NCBI RefSeq assembly: GCF_014279775.1
Contig: NZ_CP047961.1
Coordinates: 62,001 to 126,000, forward strand
Direction of reading: 5' to 3'
Source: Synechococcus sp. PROS-9-1
Lineage (GTDB): Bacteria > Cyanobacteriota > Cyanobacteriia > PCC-6307 > Cyanobiaceae
Length of the DNA stretch: 64,000 nucleotides
Position 1 is the stretch's first letter. Each line of letters opens with the position of its first letter. Positions 52,231-55,469 of the stretch are shown piece by piece. The translations under genes were made by a program, and so were the position numbers. The notes beneath the pieces are model-generated. The model was not told where the DNA came from and did not search any database. It saw only the letters and a list, made by a program, of their open reading frames with translations.

Positions 52231-52494
52231 ATGAGTGGTGAGCGCGTAGGTTTCCGCTTCAAACACGCCGATGCGGTGGTCAAGCGCAATCCGCAGGGGC
52301 GGTCCCGTCGAGGATGGGTGATGGAACCAGTGGAGCAGACCACGAGCCGAGGCACCAAGATGCCCGCTTATCGAATCCGCTGGCGTGACAGTGAGCGGCC
52401 TGAAATTGTGCTTCAGCACATGCTGATCGCTGATCCAGACCCCACCCCTCCACCTGAAAATGTGAGCCTCGAGCCACCCGCACCCAAGGCTTGA
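52231..52494 (+). CDS. Conserved small protein of unknown function
   Basis: An 87-residue soluble protein I do not recognise. The first 70 residues alternate charged and hydrophobic positions (VGFRFKHADAVVKRNPQGRS, YRIRWRDSERPEIVLQHMLI), compatible with a small beta-rich fold of SH3/KOW type. The C-terminal 20 residues are Pro-rich. It starts 44 bases after lysS on the same strand and converges on the hercynine operon with 22 bases between stops. Confidence 0.7.
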   Translation: MSGERVGFRFKHADAVVKRNPQGRSRRGWVMEPVEQTTSRGTKMPAYRIRWRDSERPEIVLQHMLIADPDPTPPPENVSLEPPAPKA

Positions 52495-52516: not shown

Positions 52517-53002
52517 TTAGCTGAGCCCTTTGCTGCGCCTCAGCTCTTCGAGCTCTTGTTGTGCTTCGAATAGGGCCCAATCCTCATCCAGGCGAAGCCT
52601 TGATGAGGATTGCTGTCCTTGACTTTTAAGGCTGTTGAGCTGCTCTTCGAGTTCGGCGAACTGAAGGCCCAGGGCCTCGAACTCGTTCCAGAGCTCGCGA
52701 CCTTGCTGCATCAGACCAACAACATGCTGATCAGCCCGTTGCGCGAGTTCAAGGGCGCCAGCCCCACGTGCTTTCTCGCCCCGCTTTGTCCAGGCTTGGA
52801 CCTGTTCGGCGAGCGTGAGCAGTTGGCGGCGTAATTCCCTCGCTTGGAGTTGCTGCTGCCCGCGACGATTGTGAAGATCCCTTTGGCGGTCTTGAAGGTG
52901 CTGTTCCTGCAGTAATTGATCCTGGCTGGGATTGCTGCGCAAAAACTGTTCCAGCCGTTCTTCCAGGCTGCGTTCGAGGTTGTCCAGCCAGGTGGGGCTC
53001 AT
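52517..53002 (-). CDS. Hercynine-operon-associated protein, coiled coil
   Basis: A 161-residue protein dominated by Gln, Glu, Leu and Arg with long heptad-like stretches (LQDRQRDLHNRRGQQQLQAR, LQFAELEEQLNSLKSQ). It is predicted to be mostly helical coiled coil with no membrane segment. It is the last gene of the egtB-egtD operon, overlapping the preceding gene by 4 bases (ATGA). From memory, cyanobacterial genomes carry a 'hercynine metabolism protein' in this position; its function is not known. Catalytic residues are absent, so a scaffold or partner role is more likely than an enzymatic one (inference). Confidence 0.75.
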   Translation of the reverse strand: MSPTWLDNLERSLEERLEQFLRSNPSQDQLLQEQHLQDRQRDLHNRRGQQQLQARELRRQLLTLAEQVQAWTKRGEKARGAGALELAQRADQHVVGLMQQGRELWNEFEALGLQFAELEEQLNSLKSQGQQSSSRLRLDEDWALFEAQQELEELRRSKGLS

Positions 53003-53232
53003 GGGATTGGATCCGGTGCGCTCGTGATCAATGGAGCTTCGATTTCCTGCTCCAGCGGATTGATCGCACCTTCCCGTGAACGGAGCAATAGCTGGGTGAG
53101 ACGGGCGACCGAGCCCTCCCCGAGCTCAAGAGCACCCAAACGATCGAAGGCGTTGCGGTACACCGTTTCCAGCTCTTCGATCAGGGTCTCTCGTTGTAAA
53201 CGGACTGTGGCCCGTTGCTCGTCGCGACTCAT
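52999..53232 (-). CDS. Hercynine-operon-associated small protein
   Basis: A 77-residue protein starting MSRDEQRATVRLQRETLIEE, with one or two amphipathic helices (ETLIEELETVYRNAFDRLGAL, read in segments) and an acidic C-terminus with Pro. It lies 27 bases after egtD and overlaps the next gene by 4 bases. It matches my recollection of the 'hercynine metabolism small protein' found beside egtB/egtD in marine cyanobacteria. No known motif; a protein-protein adaptor is the most likely reading. Confidence 0.75.
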   Translation of the reverse strand: MSRDEQRATVRLQRETLIEELETVYRNAFDRLGALELGEGSVARLTQLLLRSREGAINPLEQEIEAPLITSAPDPIP

Positions 53233-53259
53233 GGCTCAGCAGGGATGAAGGTCTGGATC

Positions 53260-54240
53260 TCAGTCTGTGGCTTCTAGGAGATGTAAGGAGAGATCGTCAT
53301 CTGGATCATGCCAGCGGCGCACCCAGCGCCATCCGGCCTGTTGCGCTAACGCAACAGCGCGTTCAGGGCTGTATTTGAGGCTGTATTCGGTGATCAGTGG
53401 TTCATCGCACCTGAACGTCCAACTGTGATCGGCGATCCTGACCACTTGGTCGCAGCTGCTGATCAAGGCCATCTGCACCCTCTGCTGGTCGGCTTGCCAA
53501 CGCGCTTGGTATTGAAAGGATTGGGGGTCAAAATTCGCTCCTAAATCGGCATTGAGGCGATGCAGCAAGTTGCGTGCAAAGGCGGCTGAGATGCCAGCGG
53601 CGTCGTTGTAGGCCGCTTCGAGGCGGACCTTGCTCTTGGGTTGGTCCAGACCAAGCAGGAGAGGTCCCCCCTTCAGCAACTGCTTGAAATGGCGGAGTAG
53701 CCGGACGGCATCGTGCTGCTCAAAATTGCCGAGCGAGCTGCCGGGAAAGAAACCGATGCGGCGTTGATCTCGCAGCAATGGGTGCTCAGGCACTGCTTTA
53801 AGCGTGCTGTGATCGCAGCAAATTCCCAGCATCGGCACCCCTGGGTGGCGTTGCTGCAGAGCTGCGGTGGCCTTGCCTAGATGCTCGGCACTGATGTCGA
53901 GGGCCACGTAGGCGGCGGGATGGATCGCGTCGAGAAGAGGCCCTACTTTTTGGGCGCTGCCAGCCCCGAATTCAACAATCACCCCTCCACCGATGGCTAA
54001 CGCAATCTCGGGGGCAGCCAACTCGAGCAGAGCAATTTCGGTGCGCGTGAGGCTGTATTCGGGTTGCTCACAGATGCGATCGAACAGGCGTGAGCCCTCC
54101 TCGTCATAGAGAAACCAAGCCGGGAGTTGGCGGGGACAACGATTGAGCCCGATCCGCACGAGCTGTTCCATATCCGCTGCTGGCGGATGGAGGTCGATCA
54201 GTTCGGGTTTTTGATCAGTCTGTTGAGAGGTGGTGGTCAT
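53260..54240 (-). CDS. egtD: L-histidine N-alpha-methyltransferase
   Basis: EgtD trimethylates the alpha-amino group of histidine with three S-adenosylmethionine to make hercynine, the first step of ergothioneine synthesis. The 326-residue protein has FLYDEEGSRLFD (about 43-54), EYSLTRTE (61-68), the SAM-binding FGAGSAQKV (91-99) and GFFPGSSLGNF, the family marks. Its ATG overlaps the egtB stop by 4 bases. It depends on SAM recycling; ahcY is about 9 kb away but on an independent transcript. Confidence 0.95.
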   Translation of the reverse strand: MTTTSQQTDQKPELIDLHPPAADMEQLVRIGLNRCPRQLPAWFLYDEEGSRLFDRICEQPEYSLTRTEIALLELAAPEIALAIGGGVIVEFGAGSAQKVGPLLDAIHPAAYVALDISAEHLGKATAALQQRHPGVPMLGICCDHSTLKAVPEHPLLRDQRRIGFFPGSSLGNFEQHDAVRLLRHFKQLLKGGPLLLGLDQPKSKVRLEAAYNDAAGISAAFARNLLHRLNADLGANFDPQSFQYQARWQADQQRVQMALISSCDQVVRIADHSWTFRCDEPLITEYSLKYSPERAVALAQQAGWRWVRRWHDPDDDLSLHLLEATD

Positions 54241-55469
54241 CGGGCCAAGCGCAGGCCAGCCGCCATCCAGCGGCTAGAGGGAGCAAAAAAATTGCGGTAG
54301 GTGTTGCGGGCATGCCCCTCTGGGGTGAGCTGGCTGCTGCCCCGCAACACAAACTGGGAGGTCATGAATTTGCCGTTGTACTCGCCCACAGCTCCTTGCG
54401 CTGCTTGAAATCCGGGATAGGGCCGGTAGGGACTTGCGGTCCATTGCCAAAGCTCAGCATGGCTTTGCTTGAGCTGCAGCCCGTGCTCCTGGGCGGCCAT
54501 CTCCCATTCGGCCTCCGTTGGTAAGCGGGCTCCCGCCCAACGCGCGTAGGCATCGGCTTCAAACCAGCTGAGATGACGCACAGGGCGATGGTCTTTTAAC
54601 GGGCAGCGGCCTGCCAGGGTGAATTCCCAGGCCCAAGCTTGCTGTTCACCACACTGCGCTTGGCGCCAGTAACGCGGTGCTTTCCACTGCCGCTCTGTGC
54701 GGATGGCCCAGCCTTCACTCATCCAGAGTTCGGGGCGCATATAGCCGCCGTCCTCGATAAAAGCTCTGTAGTCGCCGTTGCTCACTAAGCGATCGGCCAG
54801 GTCATAGGGCTCGAGCCAAACGCGATGCCGTGGTTCCTCATTGTCGAAATGGAAGCGATGGGCGTTGTTGGTGCTGCTGTGTTGTTGGGTGTCTTGACCG
54901 ATCTCCACCAGCCCCCCCGCACACTGCAGCCAAACGGGAGTTGTCCCATCGTTGGGAGAGGCTTTGGGCTCGTGCCAATCCGTTCGGTAAGCCGGTTCCA
55001 AGGGCTGACGGCTGAAGGCATCGAGAAGATCCATCAACATCAACTCCTGATGCTGTTGCTCGTGCTGAAGGCCCAGTTCCACGAGCTCCAGCCAGGGGGA
55101 GGTGGAATCTCCTTTGCGTTGGAGCAGGTTTTCCAGGGCCTGGTTCACCTTGTGCCGCCAAGCGATCACCTCTGCCATTGGTGGCCTGCTGAGTAAGCCC
55201 CGTTGCGGTCTGGGTTGCCGAGGACCAACCGCGTCGTAATAGGAGTTGAACAGATAGTTCCAGCGGTGATCTGCCCCTTCGTAACCAGGGCAATGGGGGA
55301 TCAAAACAAAGGTTTCGAAAAACCAGGTGGTATGAGCGAGATGCCATTTGGGTGGGCTCGCATCGGCCATGCCCTGGAGGCAGAGGTCTTCGGCTTCAAG
55401 CGGCTCAATCAACACTTCGCTGGTGCGGCGCACGTACATCAGCCGGCTGAGCAGCGTGCCGGAGTCCAT
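54237..55469 (-). CDS. egtB: Hercynine oxygenase / sulfoxide synthase EgtB
   Basis: EgtB is the non-haem iron enzyme that joins a thiol donor (gamma-glutamylcysteine or cysteine) to hercynine with O2, forming the sulfoxide precursor of ergothioneine. The 410-residue protein has an N-terminal DinB-like domain with iron ligands likely from WHLAHTTWFFE (His46) and HEQQHQE (His136, His140), and a C-terminal FGE-sulfatase-like domain with LRGSSQLTPEGHARNTYRNFF (read in segments). Typical members have RGGS; here it is RGSS. First gene of the four-gene operon, divergent from the kinase gene with 97 bases between starts. The donor thiol cannot be told. Confidence 0.93.
   Translation of the reverse strand: MDSGTLLSRLMYVRRTSEVLIEPLEAEDLCLQGMADASPPKWHLAHTTWFFETFVLIPHCPGYEGADHRWNYLFNSYYDAVGPRQPRPQRGLLSRPPMAEVIAWRHKVNQALENLLQRKGDSTSPWLELVELGLQHEQQHQELMLMDLLDAFSRQPLEPAYRTDWHEPKASPNDGTTPVWLQCAGGLVEIGQDTQQHSSTNNAHRFHFDNEEPRHRVWLEPYDLADRLVSNGDYRAFIEDGGYMRPELWMSEGWAIRTERQWKAPRYWRQAQCGEQQAWAWEFTLAGRCPLKDHRPVRHLSWFEADAYARWAGARLPTEAEWEMAAQEHGLQLKQSHAELWQWTASPYRPYPGFQAAQGAVGEYNGKFMTSQFVLRGSSQLTPEGHARNTYRNFFAPSSRWMAAGLRLAR

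Follow-up and report, generated by a model that had tools for sequence, protein, structure and literature searches.

Ergothioneine synthesis is known from the mycobacterial egtABCDE cluster. As far as the accessible text of one report goes, the sulfoxide synthase EgtB of Chloracidobacterium thermophilum (CthEgtB) prefers cysteine (PMC10903977). For cyanobacteria, the available part of another report states that Synechocystis PCC 6803 uses glutathione itself and that no egtE is known from this group (PMC10295655), and the available part of a third reports hercynine in nine of ten strains, with homologs of the pathway genes in those nine and no such homologs in Synechococcus elongatus PCC 6301 (PMC3826126). 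A second described system also bears on this work: Vipp1 (IM30) and PspA, which belong to PF04012 and to the ESCRT-III superfamily. According to the accessible portion of PMC12636044, a piece of IM30 comprising alpha0-3 binds membranes, and the basic alpha1-3 hairpin is credited with the binding. Here we analyze a four-gene unit of Synechococcus sp. PROS-9-1, in which egtB and egtD are followed by genes for two small proteins of 77 and 161 amino acids (aa). The unit lies in a 64,000-nucleotide stretch (contig NZ_CP047961.1, positions 62,001 to 126,000), which we call the window.

The four genes are all on the minus strand, from 55469 to 52517 (Table 1). An initial annotation, made from the DNA alone, had described them as one unit with two 4-base overlaps, and we recovered all four open reading frames (ORFs). 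The overlaps join egtB to egtD and the 77-aa gene to the 161-aa gene, and 27 bases separate egtD from the 77-aa gene. It was also correct that no egtC or egtE adjoins the operon and that both small proteins are helical, as judged from predicted models. All four proteins score above the curated cut-offs of NCBIfam, and by the scores of EgtB and EgtD the unit qualifies as a putative ergothioneine operon. The small proteins are not new: NCBIfam includes both, as "hercynine metabolism small protein" (TIGR04374) and "hercynine metabolism protein" (TIGR04375), each typed as a hypothetical equivalog. The curators had thus already recorded the association with hercynine, without a function. The explanation that we hold, with slightly better than even confidence, is that a bacterial-type egtBD pair is co-expressed for stress with a divergent PspA/Vipp1-like protein (161 aa) and an independent 77-aa protein, and that these two are not obligate subunits of EgtB or EgtD.

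Table 1. The four genes of the unit; coordinates count from the first letter of the window.
Gene	Coordinates	Strand	Product and best-scoring family
egtB	54237..55469	-	410 aa; TIGR03440, 503 bits (cut-off 360)
egtD	53260..54240	-	326 aa; histidine N-alpha-methyltransferase; TIGR03438, 361 bits (cut-off 290.9); Pfam Methyltransf_33, 2e-96
77-aa acidic protein gene	52999..53232	-	predicted two-helix hairpin; TIGR04374, 127 bits (126.8; cut-off 70)
161-aa protein gene	52517..53002	-	TIGR04375, 207 bits (207.3; cut-off 125)

A scan of a genome collection with the 77-aa protein confirmed 128 places, of which we kept the best 80; the other 48 were not seen. The 80 loci are from Synechococcus, Cyanobium, Aphanothece, Vulcanococcus, one Prochlorococcus (MIT 0701), and many metagenome-assembled genomes (MAGs). 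All four genes are present in the same order at 72 of these best 80 loci, and Synechococcus WH7803 (locus L074) carries all four. Among the remaining eight, four lack the 161-aa gene, two lack both egtB and egtD, and two lack egtB. The end of a contig near the absent gene accounts for five of the eight (L090, L121, L125, L142, and L146). L114, a MAG, has no egtBD, although its contig carries smpB and a gene for a kinase on the upstream side and lysS on the downstream side. The 161-aa gene is missing from L117 and L128; the 77-aa gene of L128 is followed directly by a DUF218 gene. Separately, the record for L090 (contig CALPNT020000037.1) is titled Bifidobacterium breve and has picocyanobacterial genes; it is probably a mislabeled or contaminated MAG.

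We then considered how often each gene occurs without the others. Each of the four families was searched for in the same 291 genomes sampled from the phylum, 35 of which belong to the window's family. Within the family, 17 genomes have all four genes and 12 have none. Of the six exceptions, one has egtBD and the 77-aa gene without the 161-aa gene (G272), two have both small genes without egtBD, with the 161-aa gene at the same site (G264 and G274), and three have the 77-aa gene alone (G114, G163, and G221). All six have smpB on one side and a gene for an 87-aa protein followed by lysS on the other. The 77-aa gene is the most often kept of the four (23 of 35 genomes); egtBD is missing from 5 of these 23 and from 2 of the 19 family genomes with the 161-aa gene.

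EgtD scores above the cut-off in 100 genomes outside the family, and the 77-aa protein has no match in 96 of them. Matches to the 77-aa protein were found in five genomes outside the family, all below the cut-off, and four of these five have EgtD. A wider 77-aa profile recovered the same 28 genomes in total. Of the 103 genomes sampled from the rest of the class, 100 have relatives of the 161-aa protein that score below the TIGR04375 cut-off (G051, G093, and G193 have none). Seven of those 100 lack an intact EgtD: five have no match (G036, G111, G145, G175, and G185) and two have fragments with stops (G181 and G266). Similarly, S. elongatus, used as a control, matches both small families (below the cut-offs) but has no match to EgtB or EgtD. 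TIGR04376, a family homologous to TIGR04375, and EgtD are both near-universal in the class, so their co-occurrence there is uninformative. For viral copies of the two small proteins, IMG/VR gave 49 and 142 pattern matches, none of which was confirmed by tblastn, in a method that catches near relatives only. As a side note, the EgtD of G030 is in two pieces (contig C55, 29451-30357), which, with the fragments in G181 and G266, may be a sign of gene decay.

From this distribution, we conclude that the small proteins can do without EgtBD and that EgtBD of other cyanobacteria needs no 77-aa protein. The NCBIfam names imply a role with hercynine, but the distribution gives no support for a requirement. 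The initial annotation had called the coupling of the genes strict, and it took this as a sign that the two small proteins are required in step with EgtB and EgtD. Four-base overlaps are common, not strict: they occur at 37 of 76 egtB/egtD junctions, 37 of 78 egtD/77-aa junctions, and 52 of 76 77-aa/161-aa junctions. The need itself is not supported, as some family genomes have a small gene without egtBD. What the initial annotation named as refuting its reading, small proteins widespread without egtB and egtD, is largely what we see for the small proteins or their relatives; one point stands in its favor, in that egtBD in the window's family is always accompanied by the 77-aa gene (18 of 18 genomes), which weighs against the independence that we propose. 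Overall, the operon is real and conserved, and the argument from coupling is not borne out.

One could instead suppose that the linkage is neutral: the small genes would be old residents of the smpB-lysS neighborhood, egtBD would have been placed upstream of them, and joint transcription would mean little. The setting of smpB, the 77-aa gene, the 87-aa gene, and lysS is indeed present without egtBD in G114, G163, G221, G264, G274, and L114, and in trees, EgtB of the picocyanobacteria groups as one separate clade, as does EgtD (see below). However, the four-gene order at most loci and the frequent 4-base overlaps suggest selection for co-expression, and we think that neutral linkage is unlikely. 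A role of the small proteins as accessory subunits or chaperones of EgtB and EgtD, for instance as a scaffold or in iron loading or substrate channeling, seems to us quite unlikely. This idea would account for the conserved gene order, for the constant presence of the 77-aa gene beside egtBD in the family, and for the NCBIfam names, but not for the five family genomes with the 77-aa gene and no egtBD (two of them with the 161-aa gene), nor for G272, L117, and L128, where egtBD has no 161-aa gene with it, nor for the 96 genomes outside the family that have EgtD and no 77-aa match. On this evidence, we marked down an obligate role for the small proteins.

The new result here concerns the ancestry of the 161-aa protein: TIGR04376, and through it TIGR04375, look like divergent PspA/Vipp1 proteins, as judged from profile comparisons. 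We aligned 34 TIGR04375/TIGR04376 proteins (13 from the window's family and 21 wider ones; alignment A1). For comparison, we used Vipp1/PspA proteins from 26 of 30 loci of the phylum; L195, L210, L216, and L217 had no clean ORF and were dropped. When the A1 profile was compared to 177,635 distinct PDB sequences, Vipp1/PspA took the first nine places (E = 8e-7 to 5e-4), and the matches were collinear, with positions 1-174 aligned onto 1-217. A profile built from TIGR04376 only (20 proteins, as L057 of the 21 was left out as truncated) also placed Vipp1/PspA first to ninth (E = 3.6e-8 to 8e-5), with the next match at 0.023. With hhalign, the 21 TIGR04376 rows matched the 26 Vipp1/PspA proteins at 97.5% (E = 8e-12), as compared to 1.4% for the reversed profile and 0.0-0.2% for five column shuffles. 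A1 gave 96.9% (reversed, 2.1%). TIGR04375 and TIGR04376 are plainly homologous to each other (99.6%, E = 9e-25), although TIGR04376 proteins are about 175-200 aa long and mostly occur without a 77-aa gene.

Pfam searches point the same way. In a scan of the 34 members at E of 1 or less, PspA_IM30 was the most frequent family (9 of 34, best E = 6e-4), and the next family matched 5 of 34. Of 59 genomes searched with PF04012, 19 lie outside the family and have a TIGR04376 gene, and the search matched that gene in two of them (G030 at 1e-5 and G042 at 4.8e-4, both below the cut-off). In the window's genome, the single match to PF04012 is another gene elsewhere. Invariant W, R, L, and A residues in the turn region of the hairpin align with those of Vipp1. 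The 161-aa protein and Vipp1/PspA share a predicted amphipathic alpha0, a predicted long hairpin, a collinear alignment, and an alpha5-like tail; they differ in length (161 aa versus 219-270 aa in the 26 compared), as the middle region is mostly absent from the 161-aa protein, and in the location of its gene downstream of egtBD in picocyanobacteria.

The predicted structure may point in this direction as well. For the helices, we use the names alpha0 to alpha6, which we take to be those of the Vipp1 literature. The model of the 161-aa protein, from an alignment of the window's protein with those of 57 of the 76 loci having the gene (A5; 58 rows), has a mean predicted local distance difference test (pLDDT) score of 86.3 and a predicted template modeling (pTM) score of 0.59. 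Its helices (3-23, 25-80, and 84-157) correspond to alpha0 plus a hairpin. Foldseek ranked Vipp1/PspA 1 to 11 among 350,542 PDB chains (E = 0.028-0.21). VIA-align gave Z = 12.3 for Vipp1 6zvr (residues 1-158 on 2-158) and Z = 12.6 for Snf7, which is also ESCRT-III. The strongest hydrophobic moment over 18 residues is in alpha0 (rank 1 of 144 segments), as it is in the genome's own Vipp1 (rank 1 of 238). The 161-aa protein would thus be a shortened member of the PspA/Vipp1 branch that keeps alpha0, the alpha1-alpha2/3 hairpin, and the alpha5-like tail and has apparently lost most of alpha4 and alpha6, with the helices placed by alignment.

Several results weigh against this kinship. TIGR04375 alone did not match Vipp1/PspA in hhalign, with 2.5% for 13 rows (reversed, 0.2%) and 6.9% for 58 rows (reversed, 2.9%), and in the PDB search with a profile from TIGR04375 alone, Vipp1 came out at E = 8.3, whereas a lysozyme chain that is unrelated ranked ahead of it at 1.4e-5. 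As direct proof, TIGR04375 alone therefore failed, and the likeness is reached only through TIGR04376. The tenth match of the A1 profile, close behind the nine Vipp1/PspA proteins, is an unrelated poly(A)-binding protein fragment (8e-4), and HMMER gives a large composition bias in the Vipp1 matches of this profile. The window's 161-aa protein has no match to PF04012 at E up to 1 (gathering cut-off, 33.9 bits); its sole Pfam match in a scan at this threshold is a weak one to CENPH (0.0072). None of the Foldseek E values is significant (best, 0.028; none below 0.001). VIA-align reaches Z = 12.2 for a designed coiled coil and 11-12 for other unrelated helical proteins, so we rejected it as a stand-alone discriminator. 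Finally, the hairpin of the 161-aa protein is not basic: residues 25-127 have an isoelectric point (pI) of 6.4 and a net charge of -1, and residues 25-157 have a pI of 5.5.

Some of these points would be expected if the likeness came from composition and the heptad repeat of a generic coiled coil, namely, the lack of a significant direct score for TIGR04375, the similar Z of unrelated coiled coils, and the composition bias, but the match is lost in the reversed and shuffled controls, the forward profile aligns collinearly along its full length, and Vipp1/PspA ranks first in both the sequence and the Foldseek searches, which makes a generic coiled coil improbable.

The charge of the hairpin bears on function. 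Across the 58 relatives, the median pI of the hairpin is 7.1, whereas in the 26 Vipp1/PspA proteins residues 25-156 have a median pI of 9.45, with 25 of 26 above 7 (9.6 in the genome's own Vipp1). A basic alpha1-3 hairpin is a feature of Vipp1, and in the 161-aa protein it is neutral to acidic. Because the basic hairpin of IM30 drives its binding, direct membrane binding by the 161-aa protein is doubtful; it may instead act on Vipp1 polymers or on other proteins rather than on lipid. A fuller proposal, which seems to us possible but rather doubtful, is that TIGR04375/TIGR04376 is a further cyanobacterial ESCRT-III-like family, near-universal in the class, whose short subunit with a neutral hairpin would co-assemble with or cap Vipp1/PspA polymers, and that in picocyanobacteria it is on the egtBD message so that the supply of antioxidant and the upkeep of membranes increase in step.

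A text search of the literature for the names and accessions of TIGR04374 and TIGR04375 found no papers. Our results point to a cyanobacterial relative of Vipp1/PspA that spans nearly the whole class, and we found no earlier description of it; subscription papers were outside both searches. The accessible part of PMC11237479 describes two cyanobacterial PspA/Vipp1 clusters, and the full list of homologs in that paper may include TIGR04376 proteins.

The TIGR04376 gene has a possible partner of its own. At 9 of 20 loci (L043, L047, L051, L053, L054, L055, L057, L059, and L062), one recurring gene family lies directly upstream on the same strand. Four of the nine upstream proteins were scanned, and three match T2SSC (GspC) weakly at the C terminus (best E = 1.4e-5, below the cut-off). 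By eye, some proteins of this family have a hydrophobic N-terminal stretch.

The 77-aa protein is probably an independent two-helix protein. Its AlphaFold2 model has a mean pLDDT of 87.7, with helices at 3-34 and 39-65. It has a pI of 4.6, and 33 positions are invariant in an alignment of the window's protein with those of 30 of the 80 loci (A6; 31 rows). No significant relatives were found by Foldseek (best E = 0.75) or by a PDB profile (best E = 0.27), the matches in Pfam were scattered and weak, with none significant, and the neighborhoods of distant 77-aa relatives held nothing informative by eye.

Turning to the enzymes, the closest solved EgtB to the window's protein is that of C. thermophilum (8QF6, 6QKI, and 6O6L; E about 2e-115), and the EgtB of M. 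thermoresistibile (4X8B, 1.2e-29) is far. We compared 76 EgtB proteins, including the window's. The iron-ligand stretch HEQQHQE is present in 75 of them. The initial annotation had singled out RGSS in place of RGGS; the substitution is real, but it is ordinary for the lineage, as RGSS is the commonest variant (36 proteins, versus 11 with RGSC, 11 with RGGS, 9 with RGSA, and 9 with another motif or no match). We therefore rejected RGSS as a special feature. The picocyanobacterial proteins differ from CthEgtB by these RGSS, RGSC, RGSA, and other variants.

We built trees of 26 EgtB and 31 EgtD proteins; the rows, 13 picocyanobacterial ones and those from 20 other regions, were selected by hand. 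In both trees, the picocyanobacterial rows make up a single clade (100/100 each). In the EgtB tree, this clade groups with eight other rows (such as G011 and G080) and is separate from five rows that are of a different type. In the EgtD tree, it groups with G011, G080, and G035 and not with the EgtD of all eight EgtB companions. Because egtB adjoins egtD in G011 and overlaps it by 4 bases in G080, the egtB-egtD pair recurs beyond the picocyanobacteria. The pair appears to be of a bacterial type that differs from the sulfoxide synthase found in many other cyanobacteria.

The EgtB and EgtD steps are in common with the mycobacterial cluster, and the pair would make hercynine and then hercynyl sulfoxide. 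The initial annotation had suggested that the thiol donor might differ or that genes elsewhere might complete the pathway. A search of the whole genome for EgtC (TIGR03442) gave no match at E of 1 or less. Given this result and the closeness of EgtB to the cysteine-preferring CthEgtB, cysteine is the likely donor, although glutathione is also possible. With cysteine as the donor, EgtC would not be needed, which would explain the absence of egtC. The C-S bond would then be cut by an enzyme encoded elsewhere. The genome has nine matches to class V enzymes, and we scanned seven, the other two being below the Pfam cut-off. The seven are SufS, two IscS/NifS-like proteins, two aminotransferase-like proteins, one decarboxylase-like protein, and a homolog of the cystine C-S lyase C-DES. 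None of the seven passes the TIGR04343 (EgtE) cut-off of 400 bits (the best is SufS, with 107), and TIGR04343 was not searched genome-wide. The C-DES homolog (G000:C1:580652-581584, minus strand; positions 1408-2643 of L184), which is similar to 1ELQ (E = 5e-86), is a candidate for the last step and could replace EgtE.

If a bacterial-type egtBD pair and a divergent Vipp1 relative are indeed co-expressed, co-transcription might serve joint expression in oxidative or photosynthetic stress: one arm would supply an antioxidant, and the other would contribute to membrane upkeep, perhaps by binding Vipp1 polymers. In marine cells that are very abundant, antioxidant synthesis would then be linked to the membrane-remodeling system of oxygenic phototrophs. 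The distribution and the homology also cast doubt on the function that the database names suggest for two conserved families of proteins.

The 87-aa protein beyond the 161-aa gene (window positions 52231-52494, plus strand) has no match to a family in NCBIfam or Pfam. Its gene adjoins lysS, and the protein is 94-99% identical across the 12 loci that we compared by tblastn.

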